NCBI RefSeq assembly: GCF_005577435.1
Contig: NZ_CP040396.1
Span: 4,357,001-4,421,000, forward strand
Origin: Paenibacillus algicola
GTDB taxonomy: Bacteria > Bacillota > Bacilli > Paenibacillales > Paenibacillaceae
DNA length: 64,000 nt
Reading direction: 5' to 3'
The notes below the pieces were generated by a model, which ran no database searches, was not told the origin of the DNA, and was given only the letters and a program-made list of their open reading frames with translations. Each line of letters opens with the position of its first letter. The first letter of the stretch is position 1. Below, one piece after another: positions 22,583-52,860 of the stretch. The position numbers and the translations under genes were made by a program.

Positions 22583-23625
22583 AGCGCCCTCTTCCTTAAA
22601 AGTACGATTAAGAATAGTATGCCGCCGAACAGCTCGATAATGACCGAGACGACAGCCTGCGAATCAAACACATGATACATCAAGAAATATGCGGTTGTCA
22701 GGACGAAGAAGCCTACCGCCAGCGCCATCGAAAAAATATATCGGTGATCATACGTTGGCGCCGCTTGATAGCTAAGCATGGCCACCAGAAAGCCGTAAAA
22801 GGTTAAGGGGCCGATCAGCGCCGTAGAGATGGACATCAGAATAGCGACCAGGATCAGAATATAGATGATGCTCGGCTGATATTTGACGCCCACAGAAACG
22901 GCGGCATCCTTCCCGAGCGATAACACATTCAGCTTTTTTGCACTGACAAACAGCAGCACGGCAATGAGAAGAACCATTGGAATGACTATAGAGAAATATG
23001 CAGCATCCGCATGGTTGACCGAGCCGAACAGCCTTGCCTGCAGCACATCGAATTCCGATGGCGTCAGCACTCTTCTCATGAACGTGGAGACAGATCTGAG
23101 ACCCACCCCGATGATAATCCCGACCAGAAGCATAAGCTGCAGGTTGCCGTATTTACCGGAGAGCAGCCACCCGTACAGGATCAAGCTCATCAAGACCATG
23201 ATGCCCACCTGAAGCAGAAACGGACCGGTACCGGTAAAGCTGACCAGGGTTCCCGCGCCAAATAAGAAGATCGTGCTCGTCTGAATCGTAGAGTACAGGG
23301 TTTCGAAGCCAAGCAGCGAAGGCGTAATAATCCGATTGTTCGTAATGGACTGAAAAGCTACTGTCGATAGCCCTTGGCATACGGCCGCGATCAGCATGGC
23401 CACGACAGCGACAATTCTTCTCTCGACGACCGGAATGAACGATGGCGAGTCTACCGGCACCGGATTGTTATATACGAGAAGTCCGTAAGTGGACAGCAGA
23501 CCTAGCATCATCAGGCTGGTAAGCAGCAGCCAGTAGCGCTTTTGTTCCTTGGGGGAGCGAAAGGCGCTCACGGATCGGGCAGCCTTGACGCTGCGAGAGG
23601 CCGAAGTGTTTACATGGGTGTTCAT
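22579..23625 (-). CDS. Siderophore ABC permease (FecCD family, YclO-like)
   Basis: 348 residues with about nine to ten membrane helices, e.g. LLLTSLMMLGLLSTYGLLVY, VVAMLIAAVCQGLSTVAFQS and MLLVGIIIGVGLRSVSTFMR. FecCD hallmarks include NRIITPSLLGFETLY near residue 118, LSLGKDAAVSVGVKY near 235 and LIGPLTFYGFLVAMLSYQAA near 270, the coupling region that meets the ATPase. It pairs with the next permease to form the channel. Overlaps both neighbours by four bases (ATGA), so translation of the set is coupled. Confidence 0.9.
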   Translation of the reverse strand: MNTHVNTSASRSVKAARSVSAFRSPKEQKRYWLLLTSLMMLGLLSTYGLLVYNNPVPVDSPSFIPVVERRIVAVVAMLIAAVCQGLSTVAFQSITNNRIITPSLLGFETLYSTIQTSTIFLFGAGTLVSFTGTGPFLLQVGIMVLMSLILYGWLLSGKYGNLQLMLLVGIIIGVGLRSVSTFMRRVLTPSEFDVLQARLFGSVNHADAAYFSIVIPMVLLIAVLLFVSAKKLNVLSLGKDAAVSVGVKYQPSIIYILILVAILMSISTALIGPLTFYGFLVAMLSYQAAPTYDHRYIFSMALAVGFFVLTTAYFLMYHVFDSQAVVSVIIELFGGILFLIVLLRKRAL

Positions 23626-24641
23626 CGTGGCCTCCTCCTCGGTTTGCGGCGCCGCAGTAAAATCGCAATAAATACAACCGCACCTAATGTTCCCAGAATT
23701 AAGGACACCGGTACCTCGAACGGCATGATAATCGTGCGCGAAATAATGTCACACAGCATAATGGTGCCCATGCCCAGCACACATACCCACGGCAGATTGC
23801 TTCTGAGATCATCCCCCCGGAACATCGAGACGATGTTCGGCACAATTAATCCCAGGAAGGGCAGATTACCGATCACCGCAGCCACAATGCCCACCGCCGC
23901 CGCAATCAACGCATTCGCTAGTATAATAAGCCGGTTATAATTCAGCCCGAGACTCGTCGCCACATCCTCTCCCAAGCCTGCCAGCGTCAGCCGGTTAGCA
24001 AAGATAAAGATCAGGATCGTAATGATGACAATAATCCATAGATACTCATATCTTCCCGCCTGTACCGCTGCGAAAGAGCCGACGAACCATCCTTCAATGA
24101 CCTGCAGCATCTGAAAAAACAGACCCATAAACGTAGAGACCGCCGAGATGACGGCGCCCAGCATAAGCCCGATAATAGGCACAATCAAGGACGAACGCAG
24201 CCGCACCCGCCTCAAGAATAGAAAGAAAACCATCGTGCCGACGAAGGAGAACAAAATGGCACCGGTCATCCGCTCAACCAAAGTTGGCGCAGGAATCAGC
24301 ACATATACGACCAGAAGGCCCAGACCCGCCCATTCGATCGTTCCGGTTGTTGTGGGCTCTACCAGGCGATTCTGAGTCACCAGCTGCATGACCAGCCCAG
24401 ACATCGCCATGGCGGCACCGGTCAGCATGAGCGCAATCGTCCGCGGAACCCGGGTAATCCAGAACATTTCCCAGCCGTCCTCCTGACCCCAAATATCGTA
24501 GACGCCCGTAAATAGAGAGATTACGCCCAGGATGAGGACCGTAATGACCGCCAGGACAAAAGGCGTGCTCCATATTTTATTATGGTTAGAAAGATGGGGC
24601 TGAGATGTTCTCTCAGCCCCCATGACGATATGGTTAGACAC
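23622..24641 (-). CDS. Siderophore ABC permease (FecCD family, YclN-like)
   Basis: 339 residues from a GTG at 24641 with AAAGGAG upstream. Multiple membrane helices; FecCD signatures are RVPRTIALMLTGAAMAMSGL near residue 64, QNRLVEPTTTGTIEWAGLGL near 90, LGEDVATSLGLNYNR near 222 and IGNLPFLGLIVPNIV near 262. It forms a heterodimeric channel with the neighbouring permease. It starts 19 bases after the binding-protein gene. Transcribed in the order binding protein, permease, permease, ATPase; in B. subtilis yclNOPQ the binding protein is last. Confidence 0.9.
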   Translation of the reverse strand: MSNHIVMGAERTSQPHLSNHNKIWSTPFVLAVITVLILGVISLFTGVYDIWGQEDGWEMFWITRVPRTIALMLTGAAMAMSGLVMQLVTQNRLVEPTTTGTIEWAGLGLLVVYVLIPAPTLVERMTGAILFSFVGTMVFFLFLRRVRLRSSLIVPIIGLMLGAVISAVSTFMGLFFQMLQVIEGWFVGSFAAVQAGRYEYLWIIVIITILIFIFANRLTLAGLGEDVATSLGLNYNRLIILANALIAAAVGIVAAVIGNLPFLGLIVPNIVSMFRGDDLRSNLPWVCVLGMGTIMLCDIISRTIIMPFEVPVSLILGTLGAVVFIAILLRRRKPRRRPR

Positions 24642-45632: not shown

Positions 45633-46814
45633 TTATTTGAATTCCTTATTCATCAATCGTACGCCATCCCGGGTGCTTACCGGCATAATCTTGTCTTTTC
45701 CTTGATCGTTAATATACTGCATCACTTGCCCCAGAATTTGCGGAGTCGTCTCATATTCCCCTAAACGCTCTTCTGTAATACCGTGCAGCATAATAATGAC
45801 CCAGGATTTCTCTTCAATCGCCCGATCGATCCAGCCCTGAATCGTGGAGAACTCTGTCGTATTCACAACAGCAAAGGATTTCAGCCAGTGCGGATCGTAG
45901 TTGTCCGCGCGGTTGGTATCCCTGTTATAGACACGAACACCATCAAAGTATTCTACCGCGATGGCTCTCACCGCATCATTATAGTCAGAGTTCGGGATCG
46001 CAATGGTGGACACCTCTCCAACTAAATCTTCTAATATAAATTTGCTGGTCTTAAACTCTTCGCGGATCTCCGCTTCCGTGCTGCTCGTCAAAAACGGATG
46101 GGTCTGTGTATGTGATGCAATCTCAATCCCGAGATCATGCGCGGCCCAGATTTGGGAGCTGTTCATAAATCTCTGTTCGCCGGAGTAAACCTTACCCCCG
46201 ATAATATTAAACGTCCCCGCCATGTTATACTTCGAGTGCAATGGCAGTGCATTGTTATACGAACTCAGAAAACCGTCATCGTATGAAAACGTAACCAGGG
46301 CTTGGCCTTTGTACAGCTTTTCATTCAATGGATCAATTTTGCTCATGTCTTCGATTGGAACGGCAGCCGGTGGTACAGGCTCCGGGGTTGCTTGCGCAGC
46401 TCCGCGGCTGGATACAGATACCATACGGTCGGCACTGCTCCACTTCACCTCTGCACCGAGCGCTTCGCTGACGAAGCGGATCGGGACGAGGGTTCGACCG
46501 TTCATCACGACTGCTTTTTGCGCCAGCTTGACCCCTGCACCATTGATCGTGGCCGCAGCGGAGCCGATGGTCAGATGGACGACGGTGTCCTTATGAACGG
46601 CTTTAATATTTTTACCGGTTACACTCAAGCTTGCGCCAAGGGACTCAAATATCCCTCTCAAGGGAACCAGGACACTTCCATTAATCATCTCCGGCGGCTG
46701 GTCATAGGATTGCAGGGCTCCGTTCACCTTCACTCGAATCGGGCTGGCTGCAGATGCAGGCATCGAAACGAATAAGAAGGAAACCGACAGTAGTAACAGC
46801 AATAGCTTCTTCAT
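45633..46814 (-). CDS. Secreted polysaccharide deacetylase with copper-amine-oxidase-type N-domain
   Basis: 393 residues from the ATG at 46814 (GAGGAA upstream; a GTG at 46826 is in frame). Signal MKKLLLLLLSVSFLFVSMPA. Residues 28-140 form the Cu_amine_oxidN1-type domain (INGSVLVPLRGIFESLGASL, VVMNGRTLVPIRFVSEALGA), a wall-associated module common in Paenibacillus. The NodB domain has VTFSYDDGFLSSYNNAL near 178 (catalytic Asp pair), the zinc HxxxH in SHTQTHPF near 238 and IIMLHGITEE near 345. It probably removes acetyl groups from a cell-wall or extracellular glycan. Confidence 0.88.
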   Translation of the reverse strand: MKKLLLLLLSVSFLFVSMPASAASPIRVKVNGALQSYDQPPEMINGSVLVPLRGIFESLGASLSVTGKNIKAVHKDTVVHLTIGSAAATINGAGVKLAQKAVVMNGRTLVPIRFVSEALGAEVKWSSADRMVSVSSRGAAQATPEPVPPAAVPIEDMSKIDPLNEKLYKGQALVTFSYDDGFLSSYNNALPLHSKYNMAGTFNIIGGKVYSGEQRFMNSSQIWAAHDLGIEIASHTQTHPFLTSSTEAEIREEFKTSKFILEDLVGEVSTIAIPNSDYNDAVRAIAVEYFDGVRVYNRDTNRADNYDPHWLKSFAVVNTTEFSTIQGWIDRAIEEKSWVIIMLHGITEERLGEYETTPQILGQVMQYINDQGKDKIMPVSTRDGVRLMNKEFK

Positions 46815-46923
46815 GTACTTCCTCACTTTACCAAGTATTAGGTACTAATGTACCACTATATGGTAGTGTAGCACTATATGGAAGGATGAACAATAGTTTC
46901 AGCTGCTTCCATATTCTTTTTCC

Positions 46924-47061
46924 TTATCCCTCTGATGAAGGCCATGCGTACTTACGCAAGTGCTGCCCCATATGCATAAGCTGCCATTCATGATACTCCT
47001 CTGTCATGACGTGAAATCCGAGACGCTCCCAGAAGGAAAAGGCTCGGCGCTCCTGCTTGAA
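46924..47061 (-). pseudogene. Remnant of a GNAT acetyltransferase C-terminus
   Basis: Minus-strand translation over about 45 codons gives RRAFSFWERLGFHVMTEEYH followed by EWQLMHM and a TAA at 46924. AFSFWERLGF is typical of the last strand and helix of GNAT N-acetyltransferases. An in-frame TGA just upstream (47062-47064) and the absence of a start or acetyl-CoA loop show that only the tail survives. It ends next to the Zur-type promoter region. Confidence 0.65.
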
Positions 47062-47097
47062 TCATATTCACTGAACCTTCCCCTTCTATGGATTACA

Positions 47098-47126
47098 TTG
47101 ATTAATCGTAATGATTACATTATAAT
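47098..47126 (+). promoter_or_regulatory. Sigma-A promoter of the Zur-type ABC operon
   Basis: TTGATT (47098-47103) and TATAAT (47121-47126) with exactly 17 bases between. The spacer contains a complete Zur-like palindrome. Transcription should begin near 47133, 35 bases before the TTG start of the binding-protein gene. Confidence 0.82.
47106..47120. promoter_or_regulatory. Zur box 1 (in promoter spacer)
   Basis: TCGTAATGATTACAT matches the Bacillus-type Zur consensus TCGTAATNATTACGA at 12 of its 14 fixed positions. It fills the space between the -35 and -10 elements, so bound repressor would exclude RNA polymerase. Confidence 0.75.
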
Positions 47127-47136
47127 CAAATCCTAA

Positions 47137-47151
47137 TCGTAACCATTACTT
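47137..47151. promoter_or_regulatory. Zur box 2 (at transcript start)
   Basis: TCGTAACCATTACTT matches the same consensus at 11 of 14 fixed positions. It lies 31 bases from box 1 centre to centre, about three helical turns, placing both on the same face of the DNA. Confidence 0.65.
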
Positions 47152-47167
47152 CTAGGAGGCAACAATC

Positions 47168-48733
47168 TTGAACATCTTGAACATGAAGAACCCCCGTAAG
47201 ATTTTACTCACCCTTATCTTTACGCTTTCCCTTTCGTTGCTAAGCGCATGCGGACAAGCCCGTACCTCTGAGCCCGGTTCTTCAGAAGATAAGAAGCATA
47301 TTCGCTTCCTTTATAATTTCTCTACAAGTTCGTTAGACCCCCACCTCGGCTCCAGCTATGTCCCGCTCAACGCAGGCATCACGGAAACTCTGGTCAAGCT
47401 GGACGAGGAGCAGCTTACGGTAGCGCCGTGGCTCGCTCAGTCTTGGGACAGCGAGGACGGACAGCATTGGAGCATTGAGCTGCGCCCGGACGTCACCTTC
47501 CAGAACGGTAAACCGATGACGGCAGAAGCCGTCAAAGCTTCGCTGGATCGGGCGCTGAAGGAAAGTGTGGCGATCAAGAATGCCCTGAAGATTGATACCA
47601 TTGAAGCGGACGGACAGAAGCTGAGCATCAAGACGGTGCAGCCTTTTCCTGAATTTATATCCGAGCTGGTCCACCCGAACACTTCTATTATAGATGTAAC
47701 AGAAACCGACTTCGTGAATCGTCCCGTAGGTACAGGACCCTTCCAGCTGAAATCCTTCTCCCCCGGAAGCAAGCTGGAGCTCGTCCGCTATGATCAATAT
47801 TGGGACGGCGCATCTCCGCTGGATACTGTCGATTTTATGTTCAATGAAGATGCCAATGCCCGCTCGCTGGCACTGCAGTCGGGACAAGTCGATATTGTCT
47901 ATCGTCCTGAGGTCAATGGACTGGAGATGCTGGATCAAGCAAAAGGCATTGCGGTACATTCCACAGCTACCTTCCGGGTGCACCAGATGACTATGAACCT
48001 GGAACGCAGCACCATGCAGGATATTGATGTCCGGCGCGCCGTTGATGCTTTGATTAACCGGGAGGAGATTGTAGCGTCGATCCTGCTGGGTTACGGCGAG
48101 ACCGCCGTGGGCCCGTTCCTGCCTTCACTTCCGTTCGCGCCGTCCTATAGCAGCAACAGCCTGGAATCAGGTAAAGACGCCGCGGTACACTATTTGAGCC
48201 AGGCAGGCTATACGCTTCAGAACGGCAGTATGCAAAAAGAGGGCCAGCCTCTCGAGCTCACCCTGCTGACGTATTCTGCTAGAGCGGATCTGCCGCTGAT
48301 TGCTCAGGTATTCCAATCCGATGCTAAAGAGATCGGCATTCAGGTGAATATTCGCCAGATTGATACCCCTGAAGAGTATATGGCTTCCAATCGGGATTGG
48401 GACATTGCCACATACAGTAACCTGACAGCTCCCCGCGGAGATGCGGGCTATTATTTGAATGCCACCTATCATCCTACGGGAGCGCTGAACTTCAGCGGGA
48501 CTGAAGATAAGGCGCTGACTGCCTTGATTGATGAGCTGAACGTTACCGTGGATACAGAGAAGCGGGCTGAACTAGCTGAAGCGGCCGCTAATTATGTCCG
48601 GGATCAGGTGTACAACGCATTTGTCCTCCATCCGGCCACCATTGTAGCTTATAACGAAGACAAAGTTATGAACTGGGTGACGTCCAAAAGTGAATACTAC
48701 ATGATCACGAACAAGCTGGATGTGAATCTATGA
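47168..48733 (+). CDS. Opp/Nik-type substrate-binding lipoprotein (putative metal or metallophore uptake)
   Basis: 521 residues from a TTG at 47168 with AGGAGG eight bases upstream. Lipobox in LSLSLLSACGQ. SBP family 5 signatures: ITETLVKLDEEQLTVAPWLA near residue 75, WSIELRPDVTFQNGKPMTAE near 103, RPVGTGPFQLKSFSPGSKLE near 178 and DVRRAVDALINREEIVASIL near 287. The cluster includes peptide, nickel (NikA) and opine-metallophore (CntA) binders, which are hard to separate by sequence. Control by Zur-like boxes points to zinc or a zinc-binding metallophore. First gene of a five-gene operon; its stop overlaps the next ATG. Confidence 0.85.
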   Translation: MNILNMKNPRKILLTLIFTLSLSLLSACGQARTSEPGSSEDKKHIRFLYNFSTSSLDPHLGSSYVPLNAGITETLVKLDEEQLTVAPWLAQSWDSEDGQHWSIELRPDVTFQNGKPMTAEAVKASLDRALKESVAIKNALKIDTIEADGQKLSIKTVQPFPEFISELVHPNTSIIDVTETDFVNRPVGTGPFQLKSFSPGSKLELVRYDQYWDGASPLDTVDFMFNEDANARSLALQSGQVDIVYRPEVNGLEMLDQAKGIAVHSTATFRVHQMTMNLERSTMQDIDVRRAVDALINREEIVASILLGYGETAVGPFLPSLPFAPSYSSNSLESGKDAAVHYLSQAGYTLQNGSMQKEGQPLELTLLTYSARADLPLIAQVFQSDAKEIGIQVNIRQIDTPEEYMASNRDWDIATYSNLTAPRGDAGYYLNATYHPTGALNFSGTEDKALTALIDELNVTVDTEKRAELAEAAANYVRDQVYNAFVLHPATIVAYNEDKVMNWVTSKSEYYMITNKLDVNL

Positions 48734-49689
48734 TTTCTTTGCTTTTTCGTAAATTCTCAGAAATGCTGATGCTGCTCCTCTTCATTACCTTCATCAGCTT
48801 TCTAATCCTTCGCCTTGCTCCGGGCGATCCGGTCCTTCAGCTATTGAAGGTGGATGAGCTGGCCGTAAGCCAGGAGCAGCTGGAGGCGCTTCGCGAGGAC
48901 ATGGGGTTCAATGAACCGCTGCTCGTTCAATACGGCCAGTGGCTGCTGAACTTCATCAGGCTGGATTTCGGGGAATCCTATGCTACTGGGCAGCCGGTCA
49001 TGGAGATGATCCTTACAGGGCTGCCCGCCACGCTGGAATTAACCTTCAGCTCGCTGCTCGTCATGCTGCTTCTGTCTATTCCGCTGGGGTCACTGGCTGC
49101 GTTATACCGGAACAGCTGGCTGGATCATGCAAGCAGAGCTTTGTCCATTCTAGGAGCAGCGATCCCCAGCTTCTGGCTCGGCCTGCTGCTCGTCGATCTG
49201 TTTGGTGTCCGGCTCGGGTGGCTGCCCACGATGGGGAGAGATGGCTTCACCTCACTGCTGCTGCCCTCCTTCACGCTGGGCATCGCCATGTCCGGCGTCT
49301 ACGTCCGGCTGCTGCGCTCCAGTCTGCTGGATTCGTTAAGCCGGGAATTCATCACTGCAGCAAGGTCGCGCGGGCTGTCTCCTTCCCGCGTGTTTGTCGT
49401 TCATGCACTGCGCCATAGCCTGCCTCCGGTCATTACTGTATTTGGTGTCAGCCTTGGCGGCCTGATTGGCGGCGTCGTTGTCATTGAGGTGATATTCGCT
49501 TATCCGGGCATCGGCAAGCTGGCTCTAGACGCGATTAAACAGCGTGATTACCCGCTGATCCAAGGATATATTCTCGTGATGGGGATCGTTGTGTTCATCG
49601 TGAATACTGCAGTGGACCTGTCGTATCGCTTCTTGAATCCGGAACTGACATCGAAGCTGACATTGAAAGCAAAGGACATTTCACCATGA
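48730..49689 (+). CDS. Opp/Nik-type ABC permease (NikB-like)
   Basis: 319 residues, about six membrane helices. The opening FRKFSEMLMLLLFITFISFL and LRLAPGDPV near residue 28 are typical of DppB/NikB proteins, as is FNEPLLVQYGQWLLNFIRLD near 60. The ATPase-coupling EAA loop is in REFITAARSRGLSPSRVFVV near 215, and GGVVVIEVIFAYPGIGKLAL near 245 is the conserved late loop. It forms half of the channel with the next gene product. Four-base overlaps on both sides show tight translational coupling. Confidence 0.9.
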   Translation: MISLLFRKFSEMLMLLLFITFISFLILRLAPGDPVLQLLKVDELAVSQEQLEALREDMGFNEPLLVQYGQWLLNFIRLDFGESYATGQPVMEMILTGLPATLELTFSSLLVMLLLSIPLGSLAALYRNSWLDHASRALSILGAAIPSFWLGLLLVDLFGVRLGWLPTMGRDGFTSLLLPSFTLGIAMSGVYVRLLRSSLLDSLSREFITAARSRGLSPSRVFVVHALRHSLPPVITVFGVSLGGLIGGVVVIEVIFAYPGIGKLALDAIKQRDYPLIQGYILVMGIVVFIVNTAVDLSYRFLNPELTSKLTLKAKDISP

Positions 49690-50522
49690 TCAGGATCAAA
49701 AGCTTCCATAAGCACACTTGGCGCTTCATTGTATTAGGAATTGTAATCTTTGCGATGATGTCCGCAGCCCTTTACACATTCCTGTACCTGCAGCATGACC
49801 CGAATCAGACCGATTTAAGCCAAAAACTGTCAGCCCCTAATTGGTTTCATCCGCTGGGCACCGATCACTTGGGACGGGATGTACTAACCCGGCTCTTGCT
49901 GGGCGGGATGCAGACTGTCGGCTACAGTTTGCTCGCGTTAGCAGCCTCCCTGCTGATCGGCATTCCCATCGGTTTGCTGTCCGGCTATCGGCGGGGGCTT
50001 ACCGATCGCATCCTCATGAGGATTGCCGATGCTTTTCTGTCATTCCCGGATACCCTGGTGGCGATTCTGCTCGCCGGTTTGCTTGGTGCCAGCATCCATA
50101 ACCTGATTCTTGCCGTCGTCATTATTAAATGGGTTAAATACGCCCGCCTGGTGCGCAGCACCATCCTGACAGAATCACAGAAGGACTATGTTCTCATGGC
50201 GAGAAGCCACGGCTTATCGGATGTTCGCATCATGTACAAGCACCTGCTTCCGCATATCATGGGCAACGTTCTCGTCATGGCCAGCCTGGATCTGGGCAAA
50301 ATCATACTGCTCATCTCCGCCTTCTCCTATATTGGCCTGGGCGTTCAGCCGCCATCCCCGGAGTGGGGAGCTATGCTGAATGATTCCCGCCCTTATTTTC
50401 AATCCAGGCCCGAGCTTATGCTTTACCCCGGACTGGCGATAGTTACCGTGGTGCTGGCGGCGAACCTCGCTGGTGATTTTTTCAGAGATTATTTTGATGT
50501 TAAAAAGGAGGTGCAGCCGTGA
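49686..50522 (+). CDS. Opp/Nik-type ABC permease (NikC-like)
   Basis: 278 residues. APNWFHPLGTDHLGRDVLTR near residue 47 is the DppC/NikC signature. Membrane helices follow (LLALAASLLIGIPIGLLSGY and LVAILLAGLLGASIHNLILA). The coupling loop reads DYVLMARSHGLSDVRIMYKH near 180 and IGLGVQPPSPEWGAMLNDSR near 238 closes the family pattern. Partner of the NikB-like permease. Its stop overlaps the GTG start of the first ATPase gene (GTGA). Confidence 0.9.
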   Translation: MIRIKSFHKHTWRFIVLGIVIFAMMSAALYTFLYLQHDPNQTDLSQKLSAPNWFHPLGTDHLGRDVLTRLLLGGMQTVGYSLLALAASLLIGIPIGLLSGYRRGLTDRILMRIADAFLSFPDTLVAILLAGLLGASIHNLILAVVIIKWVKYARLVRSTILTESQKDYVLMARSHGLSDVRIMYKHLLPHIMGNVLVMASLDLGKIILLISAFSYIGLGVQPPSPEWGAMLNDSRPYFQSRPELMLYPGLAIVTVVLAANLAGDFFRDYFDVKKEVQP

Positions 50523-51328
50523 TTCTGTCCATAGACCAGCTCACCGTACGCAGCGGACAGCAGAATATCATTCAGCAGGCCTCCCTCTCAATTCCGAAGG
50601 GCGCGTGGTATGCCCTGGTGGGACAAAGCGGCAGCGGCAAAACCTTGCTCGCACAGGCTCTCGGACAGATGCTTCCTCCGAATCTGACCGCCAGCGGCCG
50701 CATTCAGTTCAAAGGTGAGGAGCTGCTGGGCATGGCCCCAGAGCGTATTCGCGCCCTGCGCGGACGCTCCATCTCTTATGTGTTCCAGGATTACCATGGC
50801 TCCTTTACGCCGTTTCGCCGGATTGGGCAGCATTTTGACGAGGTGCTGAAGACGCATACGACAGCCTCCCCTGGAGACCGGAAGCGTCAGGCGCTGGAGG
50901 CCCTGGTCTCTATAGGGTTAGGAGAAGAGCTCTATAGCAGCTATCCCTCTCAGCTAAGTGGAGGGCAGCTGCAGCGGGTGTCCATTGCGCTGGCCCTTCT
51001 GCTCTCACCGGATCTGCTGATTGCCGATGAGATTACGACCGCGCTGGATAGCGTATCCGGCCATACCATCCTGCAGCTACTGGCCAGCAGGCAGCAGCAA
51101 ACCGGCTGCACCATTCTGTTCATTACGCATGACTGGCGTCATGTGAAGCGGTATGCCGACCGCATTGCCGTCATGAAGTCAGGGGAGATCGTGGAGTCGG
51201 GCAGCAAGCATGTGCTTCTTGACCACCCCAAGCATCCTTATACGAGAATGCTGATTCAAAGCTCGCCTACATTACCGACCCCGAAGGGCTACCTTCTTTC
51301 CGGTCTGAAGGAAGTGAATCCGGAATGA
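50519..51328 (+). CDS. Opp/Nik-type ABC ATPase 1 (NikD-like)
   Basis: 269 residues from a GTG at 50519 that overlaps the previous stop; AAAGGAGG lies shortly upstream. Walker A VGQSGSGKTLLAQALG near residue 36, Q-loop SYVFQDYHGSFTPFRRIG near 88, signature QLSGGQLQRVSIALAL near 147, Walker B DLLIADEITTALD near 170 and switch His in FITHDWRHVKRYAD. The C-terminal HPKHPYTRMLIQSSPTLP is the short oligopeptide-type tail. Works as a heterodimer with the following ATPase. Confidence 0.9.
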   Translation: MILSIDQLTVRSGQQNIIQQASLSIPKGAWYALVGQSGSGKTLLAQALGQMLPPNLTASGRIQFKGEELLGMAPERIRALRGRSISYVFQDYHGSFTPFRRIGQHFDEVLKTHTTASPGDRKRQALEALVSIGLGEELYSSYPSQLSGGQLQRVSIALALLLSPDLLIADEITTALDSVSGHTILQLLASRQQQTGCTILFITHDWRHVKRYADRIAVMKSGEIVESGSKHVLLDHPKHPYTRMLIQSSPTLPTPKGYLLSGLKEVNPE

Positions 51329-52086
51329 GCTTGTTAACAGTGAACCAGTTAACCAAGTCTTATCAGCAGGGCCAGCCTGCGGTGCATAACATGTCCTTTG
51401 AACTGCAGCGCGGGGAAAGTCTGGGACTGGTCGGGGAAAGCGGCTGCGGCAAAAGCACCTTGGCCCGCTGCTTGCTGCGTTTAGAGGACATCGACCGTGG
51501 TGAGATCCTGCTGAACGGCGTTCATATGGAAAAGCTGCACGGCCGCAAGCTGCGGCCGCTGCGCCGGCATATCCAGATCGTGCTGCAGAATCCGGCCGCC
51601 GCACTCAATCCCAAGCTGACCGTCAGGGATAGCTTAGTCGATCCCTATGAACAGTTTAAGCAGGAGCTTGCTCTGAAGCATTTTACAGTACCGTCCCTGG
51701 ACCGTTATGTGCAGCAGCTGCTGGAAGCCGTTGAACTCCCGGCCTCGCTTGGCAGCCGGTACCCGCATGAATTAAGCGGCGGTCAACGCCAGCGGGTCAC
51801 CATCGCCCGGGCCATCAGCATCGAGCCGGAATTAATGATCCTCGATGAGCCGACCGCCAGCCTCGATGTCTTATCCCAAGGTGCTGTACTTAAGCTGCTA
51901 TCCTCCCTGCAGGAAAGCTTGGGGCTGTCGTATCTGTTCATCTCGCATGATCTCGCGGCCGTCTATCAAATGTGCCCGCGCATCCTCGTGATGAAGGACG
52001 GCCGCCTGATCGATCAATGTTCACGGGAGCAGTTATTTCATGAGGAGCGCCATGCCTATACGAAGGAATTGGTTTCGATGTATTGA
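51325..52086 (+). CDS. Opp/Nik-type ABC ATPase 2 (NikE-like)
   Basis: 253 residues. Walker A VGESGCGKSTLARCLLRLED near residue 37, Q-loop IQIVLQNPAAALNPKLTVRD near 82, signature ELSGGQRQRVTIARAI near 148, Walker B LMILDEPTASLDVLSQGAVL near 172 and switch His in FISHDLAAVYQM. LQNPAAALNP is the typical NikE/DppF form. The ATG overlaps the preceding stop by four bases. Last gene of the Zur-type operon; no clear terminator hairpin was seen in the 40 bases before the convergent methyltransferase gene. Confidence 0.9.
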   Translation: MSLLTVNQLTKSYQQGQPAVHNMSFELQRGESLGLVGESGCGKSTLARCLLRLEDIDRGEILLNGVHMEKLHGRKLRPLRRHIQIVLQNPAAALNPKLTVRDSLVDPYEQFKQELALKHFTVPSLDRYVQQLLEAVELPASLGSRYPHELSGGQRQRVTIARAISIEPELMILDEPTASLDVLSQGAVLKLLSSLQESLGLSYLFISHDLAAVYQMCPRILVMKDGRLIDQCSREQLFHEERHAYTKELVSMY

Positions 52087-52125: not shown

Positions 52126-52860
52126 CTAGCTCTTCACTGCTGAAATTAATAAGAACATGGGGCGGCGGAATTCTTCTTGCCAGGCAGGATTGTTATCCAG
52201 CATCTCTTGGCTCGGTTGAAGCTCGGAAAGCCTTGTCAGTCTAAAACCGGAATCTATTAATGCATTGACTTGGGTGGCAACACTACGATGGTATTTGACT
52301 ACATTCTTTTCCAAGAAATTGGACTGCCGTAATCCTTCCTTGTGGTAGTTATCGACAGGCCAATGAACTTTCTCACCATCCGGGCTGTAGCACCAGTCTT
52401 GGGCAGCTAACGCGGTAAAGATCGGATGTTCAACCGAGAAAACGAAAGTCCCTCCAGGTGCAAGGCAGTGATACACTTTACGGCAGATCGTGTCGAAGCA
52501 CTCCACATAATGAAGCGCTAACGAACTGATGACTACGTCGAATTCCTCTTCCGCAAAATCAATGTCTTCAATGGCGAGATGCCGATACTCAATCTGAGGA
52601 TCGACGGTCATTGCTTTAGCGCGCTCTAACATGTTCTCCGAGATCTCCACACCAATGACGGACCTGGCCTGACGTTCGCGCACATAGCGACAATGCCAGC
52701 CAAAGCCGCAGCCAAGATCAAGTACTCTTTGATCACGCAGTTCCGGAAGCAGTCCGCGGAAGGTGCTCCATTCTCCAGCAGCATCCAGCCCGCCAAGCGA
52801 GCGAGGCAGCTGACTATATTTTTCGAAAAATTCTGAATCATCGTATTTATTCTGTTTCAC
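52126..52860 (-). CDS. Class I SAM-dependent methyltransferase
   Basis: 244 residues. Motif I RVLDLGCGFGWHCRYV near residue 45 binds AdoMet; SVIGVEISENMLERAKAM (acidic ribose-binding residue) near 68 and FDVVISSLALHYVECFDTIC near 108 are motifs II and IV. GGTFVFSVEHPIFTA near 138 is typical of the methyltransferase type-11 branch. The acceptor is unknown; small-molecule methylation is likeliest. Convergent with the ABC operon and divergent from the DinB-like gene, so it has its own promoter. Confidence 0.86.
   Translation of the reverse strand: MKQNKYDDSEFFEKYSQLPRSLGGLDAAGEWSTFRGLLPELRDQRVLDLGCGFGWHCRYVRERQARSVIGVEISENMLERAKAMTVDPQIEYRHLAIEDIDFAEEEFDVVISSLALHYVECFDTICRKVYHCLAPGGTFVFSVEHPIFTALAAQDWCYSPDGEKVHWPVDNYHKEGLRQSNFLEKNVVKYHRSVATQVNALIDSGFRLTRLSELQPSQEMLDNNPAWQEEFRRPMFLLISAVKS

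Follow-up and report, generated by a model that had tools for sequence, protein, structure and literature searches.

An Opp/Nik-type operon of Paenibacillus algicola with a conserved Zur-like promoter probably imports chelated zinc

Introduction

The CntABCDF (Opp1) importers of staphylopine and bacillopaline belong to the five-gene Opp/NikA family, show Zur-linked zinc control and were earlier read as nickel/cobalt systems (PMC5666155). According to the same source, CntABCDF of Staphylococcus aureus acts in zinc supply and is expressed more strongly when Zur or Fur is lost. The staphylococcal Cnt system is a precedent for a nickel label turning into a zinc label. Opine-like zincophore clusters combine a NAS-type synthase, an Opp-type importer and an exporter, with MatE exporters in fusobacteria (PMC7438024); because this survey, in the part available, was anchored on CntM, CntM-less MATE-NAS-ABC loci would fall outside it. 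Another five-gene system is NikABCDE (Opp5A-Opp2BCDF) of S. aureus and its relatives, and in lactic acid bacteria control of nikABCDE by MntR has been predicted in streptococci (PMC3616900).

In Bacillus subtilis, repression is mediated by Zur boxes that overlap elements of sigma-A promoters (PMC4324032), and expression of Zur targets tracks operator occupancy (PMC5007448). High affinity needs a 9-1-9 motif, and 40 of 167 predicted Zur boxes were bound (PMC4324032). Among the Firmicutes rows listed in the available part of a PMC6103462 table, there was no Opp/Nik-type operon. Among the open-access matches listed, in the portions of text available, no description was found of a Zur-controlled operon of the Opp5A/NikA type from Bacillales or of a MATE-NAS zincophore.

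Here, a five-gene Opp/Nik-type operon of P. algicola is described, which lies in a 64-kb stretch of DNA analysed as a whole (the window). The operon shares its gene organization with CntABCDF, but its binding protein is not of the CntA type, cntKLM is not adjacent, and the same genome carries a separate cnt cluster whose CntA passes the cut-off of its model. It shares its palindrome and the overlap of this palindrome with the promoter with the B. subtilis-type Zur regulon (znu, yciC, folE2, rpsN2) (PMC4324032).

Results

The operon (47168-52086, plus strand) consists of five genes, neighbouring members of which overlap by a few bases. It begins with a TTG-initiated gene for a solute-binding lipoprotein of the Opp5A/NikA type (47168..48733), followed by genes for an Opp2B/NikB-type permease (48730..49689; NF045470, 432 bits, cut-off 350) and an Opp2C/NikC-type permease (49686..50522; NF045474, 345 bits, cut-off 300). 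Two ABC ATPases of the Opp/Nik type (50519..51328 and 51325..52086) were named from profile matches; for neither was an NCBIfam equivalog above cut-off found among the matches listed. The second ATPase gene, the last of the operon, is faced by a convergent methyltransferase-like gene (52126-52860).

The binding protein passed the curated nickel NikA model NF045468 (710 bits, cut-off 600), so that the window proteins, like NikABCDE of S. aureus, pass the NCBIfam models Opp5A_nikA, Opp2B and Opp2C. However, the relationship to S. aureus NikA is distant: the proteins of the set that are most similar to the latter share 34-36% identity with it. The best PDB match was 3t66 (764 bits), titled a nickel ABC transporter. 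The 3t66 protein, known here by title and alignment, is 76% identical to the homologue at locus L091, and a quick tree put it within the clade of Zur-boxed homologues. S. aureus NikA and the CntA of P. algicola itself had long branches in this tree, and the points at which these two attach are used for no conclusion; L050 was excluded as too short. Against the CntA model NF047575 the binding protein reached 121.6 bits, far below the cut-off of 800, and neither CntL nor CntM was found among the flanking genes scanned. Unlike ZnuABC and AdcABC zinc importers, the operon encodes a binding protein with PF00496 as the only match, and the ZnuA-type domain PF01297 was not found in it.

On direct reading, the coordinates given in an earlier note on this DNA were all correct. 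On the plus strand, the promoter scan located a -35 element, TTGATT (47098..47103), and a -10 element, TATAAT (47121..47126), separated by a spacer of 17 bp. Zur-like box 1, TCGTAATGATTACAT (47106..47120), called from sequence, matrix and orthologue positions, lies in this spacer, with its final base directly preceding TATAAT. Zur-like box 2, TCGTAACCATTACTT (47137..47151), lies just 3' of the predicted transcript start. The start-to-start distance of the boxes is 31, and a 16-nt direct repeat with the same spacing of 31 was also detected. A predicted ribosome-binding site, AGGAGG (47154..47159), was read directly 8 bp 5' of the TTG start at 47168. This was the sole plus-strand promoter in the interval 46800-47300 (match 10/12); the two strands of the interval together gave 2 promoters against a shuffle mean of 1.1, and the promoter call is weak by itself.

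The B. subtilis-type Zur consensus is TCGTAATNATTACGA, from which box 1 deviated at 2 of 14 positions and box 2 at 3 of 14. Mismatches to the PerR consensus numbered 4 and 6, and those to the Fur consensus 5 and 6, for boxes 1 and 2, respectively. The 9-1-9 form of the Zur consensus gave 3/18 and 4/18 mismatches, a weaker match than that to the 7-1-7 form. In the 64-kb window, 7 places had at most 3 mismatches, compared with an expected 1.71 ± 1.33, and none of 100 shuffles reached 7. A site with 2 mismatches was also seen at 24017-24031, inside a coding frame of the minus strand (23622-24641); for B. subtilis, Zur boxes within genes have been reported (PMC4324032).

A matrix was trained on 8 other Zur-like sites of the P. 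algicola genome and 15 sites near weak NAS/CntL matches of relatives, the latter being the best place at no more than 2 mismatches per locus in L180-L196. Boxes 1 and 2 ranked first and second over the window, which bears out the earlier claim of two Zur-like boxes in the promoter of an Opp/Nik-type operon. Their scores (14.7 and 14.4 bits) were lower than those of all 8 own-genome sites (16.6-26.0 bits), a gap that is overstated because those sites were members of the training set. Counting boxes in a single genome was rejected as a decisive test, since 26 places with at most 2 mismatches were found genome-wide against 21 for a reversed-pattern control. One site alone is therefore no proof, and conservation is the stronger evidence. 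Overlap of a Zur-like box with the promoter, here a 7-1-7 match in the spacer, places the operon in the predicted Zur regulon.

Conservation was studied in a first sample of 28 loci from the genome collection, and a Zur-like box (at most 3 mismatches, no more than 350 bp upstream) was present in all 28. At no more than 2 mismatches, 32 places occurred in 7,885 upstream positions versus 18 in the 353,891 others, and the 300-bp upstream regions held such places at approximately 80 times the density of the rest of those loci. A homologue at E ≤ 1e-60 was detected in 124 of 392 genomes of the order, and 128 loci (137 minus 9 duplicates) were examined, with identity measured to the window protein. 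The tier with at least 59% identity covered 52 of the 70 further genomes with a homologue at 62% identity or more, and all of its 75 loci had a box with at most 3 mismatches in the 300 bp before the operon. At most 2 mismatches were found in 71 of these, and two or more boxes in 63. The earlier note had named the absence of both boxes from close relatives as grounds for refutation; such absence was not seen in any of these 75 orthologous loci. When 200 scrambled palindromes were applied to the same loci, the mean was 1.9 (maximum 30) at up to 3 mismatches and 0.09 (maximum 2) at up to 2. Boxes were found at 8 of 17 loci with 44-50% identity, at 11 of 22 with 36-43% identity and at none of 14 with identity below 35%.

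Among the nearer members of the clade, the spacer box recurred (TTGTCA-box-TATGAT and similar arrangements), with a second box 26-40 bp downstream. The spacing between boxes was 38 in 27 promoters, 26 or 27 in 12, 40 in 5 and 31 in 2, the window included. The best promoter-like match (at least 9/12) overlapped a box in 39 of 76 promoters, again counting the window, and was located elsewhere or absent in the remainder. Most of the relatives' boxes were nearer to the Zur consensus, and a few second boxes were equally near to that of Fur.

The genes adjoining the operon in relatives were also compared. Among the 48 loci of the top tier longer than 9 kb, a MATE exporter gene followed the ABC genes in 21 and a NAS gene was present in 8 (7 with MATE), while 24 had none of the searched neighbours. 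In the 44-50% tier, a box was found in 6 of 6 loci with MATE versus 1 of 9 without any searched neighbour, and in the 36-43% tier CntL and CntM adjoined 9 of 22 homologues. When neighbour and box were compared in 10 independent tree pairs, the box differed in about 2, split evenly; the association figures between genomes ignore kinship.

A NAS gene lay downstream of the operon in eight loci, seven from Peribacillus and one from Bacillus sp. (L038, L039, L040, L043, L044, L045, L046 and L048, of which L045 is shorter than 9 kb and outside the 48 long-flank loci), and upstream on the same strand in L036. MATE was present in all of the eight except L043. Each of the eight had a separate Zur-like box (at most 3 mismatches) 33-154 bp before the MATE-NAS unit, and such a second-unit box was found in none of 23 other MATE loci, L142 with its broken MATE frame being left out. 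Three NAS proteins scored 75-101 bits against PF03059, compared with 31 bits for the CntL of P. algicola, and for one NAS the solved structures of thermonicotianamine synthase (57 bits) and of CntL (52 bits) were similarly good matches. The opine dehydrogenase domain PF10100 was not found in seven of the eight downstream-NAS genomes, which are mostly drafts, nor in the genome with L036 (G398); the eighth genome (G405) carries one elsewhere. The NAS evidence was restricted to loci with adjacent NAS. The strong NAS genes of genus g7 were rejected as operon partners, since such NAS also occurred in genomes without an operon match; in the 3.7-kb strong-NAS loci L176, L178 and L179 there was no Zur-like place at up to 3 mismatches.

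In the genome of P. algicola, five Zur-like places with 1 mismatch were located before rpsN2, a His-rich znuA, folE2 and an AAA-ATPase gene and in the gap between cobW and an S-layer gene. The boxed znuA is the second of the genome. The folE2/znuC gap, with one 1-mismatch and two 2-mismatch places, opens a znuCBA-zur-cobW run, in which znu and cobW were named by sequence reading. Of the five Fur-family genes of the genome, the one in this run was assigned as the putative Zur by its location.

Three boxed sites of this genome, two of them among the five 1-mismatch places above, have the following contexts. At L012:1501 (G000:C1:4302547), a 1-mismatch box separates the cobW run from the gene for an S-layer-homology protein, an arrangement that would fit control of a surface protein by zinc; these names were read by eye. 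At L083:1520-3771 (G000:C1:2322219-2324470), a 1-mismatch box precedes the gene for an IteA-related AAA ATPase (263 bits, cut-off 510), and an ATP-grasp-like gene comes next. At L084:1727-5224 (G000:C1:1145726-1149223), a Zur-like box precedes genes for a flavin oxidoreductase, a FeoB-like membrane protein, which has a Gate domain and is shorter than FeoB, and a ZigA-like cobW protein; this set is possibly a further operon for zinc uptake or handling.

A search of the genome for opine-metallophore genes, proposed in the earlier note, revealed a complete cntKLM-cntABCDF-cntE cluster (G000:C1:2368304-2377716; L082:1305-10717) with a Zur-like box, TAGTAATCTTTACGA, 54 bp before cntK. CntA and CntE passed the NCBIfam cut-offs; CntK, CntL and CntM were below theirs yet were good matches (CntM, PF10100, 599 bits). 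CntB, CntC, CntD and CntF were named by position, CntB (a single 310-aa frame) and CntC also resembling the window permeases (37% and 35% identity). The single NAS/CntL match and the single PF10100 match of the genome are both at 2.37 Mb. With a CntA importer already encoded in the cnt cluster, the operon in the window represents a second system. Urease, [NiFe] hydrogenase and an orthologue of the MATE pump (best identity 22%) were not found in this genome.

Discussion

From the boxes, their conservation and the zinc-linked neighbourhoods of relatives, we infer that the product of the window operon imports zinc in chelated form under repression by Zur and has been mis-named for nickel, with a probability of about 0.77. 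Box conservation thus supports the earlier suggestion of a zinc or zinc-metallophore importer, in which zinc as the metal is the inferred part. When zinc is sufficient, zinc-loaded Zur dimers would occupy both boxes, the one in the spacer and the one at the start site, and the two dimers would block RNA polymerase and keep the promoter shut. As zinc falls, the boxes would become empty, and the cell would produce the importer together with ZnuABC and the separate Cnt system. Uptake would involve a binding protein of family 5 with a pair of permeases and a pair of ATPases, and zinc would presumably enter as a small-molecule chelate, since Opp/NikA-type binding proteins take metal chelates (PMC5666155). 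Several observations count against this reading, namely the box scores below those of the own-genome sites, the 9-1-9 mismatches, the low share of predicted boxes bound in B. subtilis (40 of 167), the NCBI nickel model, the title of 3t66 and the enrichment of urease described below.

The importer stands alone here, so the chelate might come from outside, from the cell's own pathways encoded elsewhere, or be a simple amino-acid complex. No NAS/CntL match was found in 33 of 71 operon genomes, PF03059 being a weak probe for CntL, and neither NAS/CntL nor urease in 20 of 71; these numbers favour an outside or simple ligand in those genomes.

The nickel model and the title of 3t66 would be taken at face value if the operon encoded a true nickel (or nickel/cobalt) importer, whose Zur control would then reflect broad chelate uptake in zinc starvation or promiscuity of Opp/Nik systems. 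Urease was indeed present in 46 of 71 operon genomes versus 158 of 321 others (p 0.018, kinship ignored; 32 weak matches with E above 1e-20 were dropped beforehand), and with this slight enrichment urease failed as a clean negative marker. However, 25 of the 71 operon genomes had no urease at E < 1e-20, neither nickel enzyme searched for was found in P. algicola itself, and S. aureus NikA is only a distant relative of the window protein. Zur-like boxes were present in 75 of 75 loci examined, and relatives have adjoining MATE, NAS or CntLM genes. A nickel importer is considered unlikely. It is less probable still that a different member of the Fur family, be it Fur, PerR or another of the five in the genome, binds the palindromes. 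These regulators have related 7-1-7 motifs, and a few second boxes of relatives match Fur and Zur equally closely, but the two window boxes and most of those in relatives are closest to the Zur consensus, and the identical motif occurs at znu/folE2, rpsN2 and cobW.

Within the preferred reading of a zinc importer, a narrower version is that the system imports a self-made zincophore of the nicotianamine type: the ancestral set would have comprised NAS or CntLM, MATE and the importer, and in P. algicola the importer alone would remain, fed by cnt. The MATE-NAS units beside the operon in eight loci (L043 without MATE), with their own Zur-like boxes, the upstream NAS of L036, the CntKLM of P. algicola and the occurrence of any NAS/CntL match in 38 of 71 operon genomes versus 94 of 321 others point in this direction. 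However, strong NAS was not enriched (3/71 versus 23/321), 33 of 71 operon genomes had no NAS/CntL match, as judged with a probe weak for CntL, the cnt cluster carries its own CntA importer, and the MATE orthologue was not found in P. algicola. This version is regarded as tentative. Somewhat more doubtful is the proposal that the importer clade provides the uptake side of a zincophore family not recognised before, with a NAS product, no opine dehydrogenase and dedicated MATE export, the solo members of which might take up zinc complexes of nicotianamine-type molecules from neighbours or plants.

The mechanism, Zur repression and ABC uptake, is ordinary; the sequence evidence provides good support for reassigning the metal in one branch of a curated family. 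The Zur-like promoters in every orthologue examined suggest that the cell treats the importer as a zinc supply, and annotations in Paenibacillus, Saccharibacillus, Peribacillus, Planococcus and their kin may name an incorrect metal. An opine-free route to a zincophore is suggested by the MATE-NAS loci; a survey built around opine dehydrogenase would overlook it, and the gene set behind this lead is small and directly testable.
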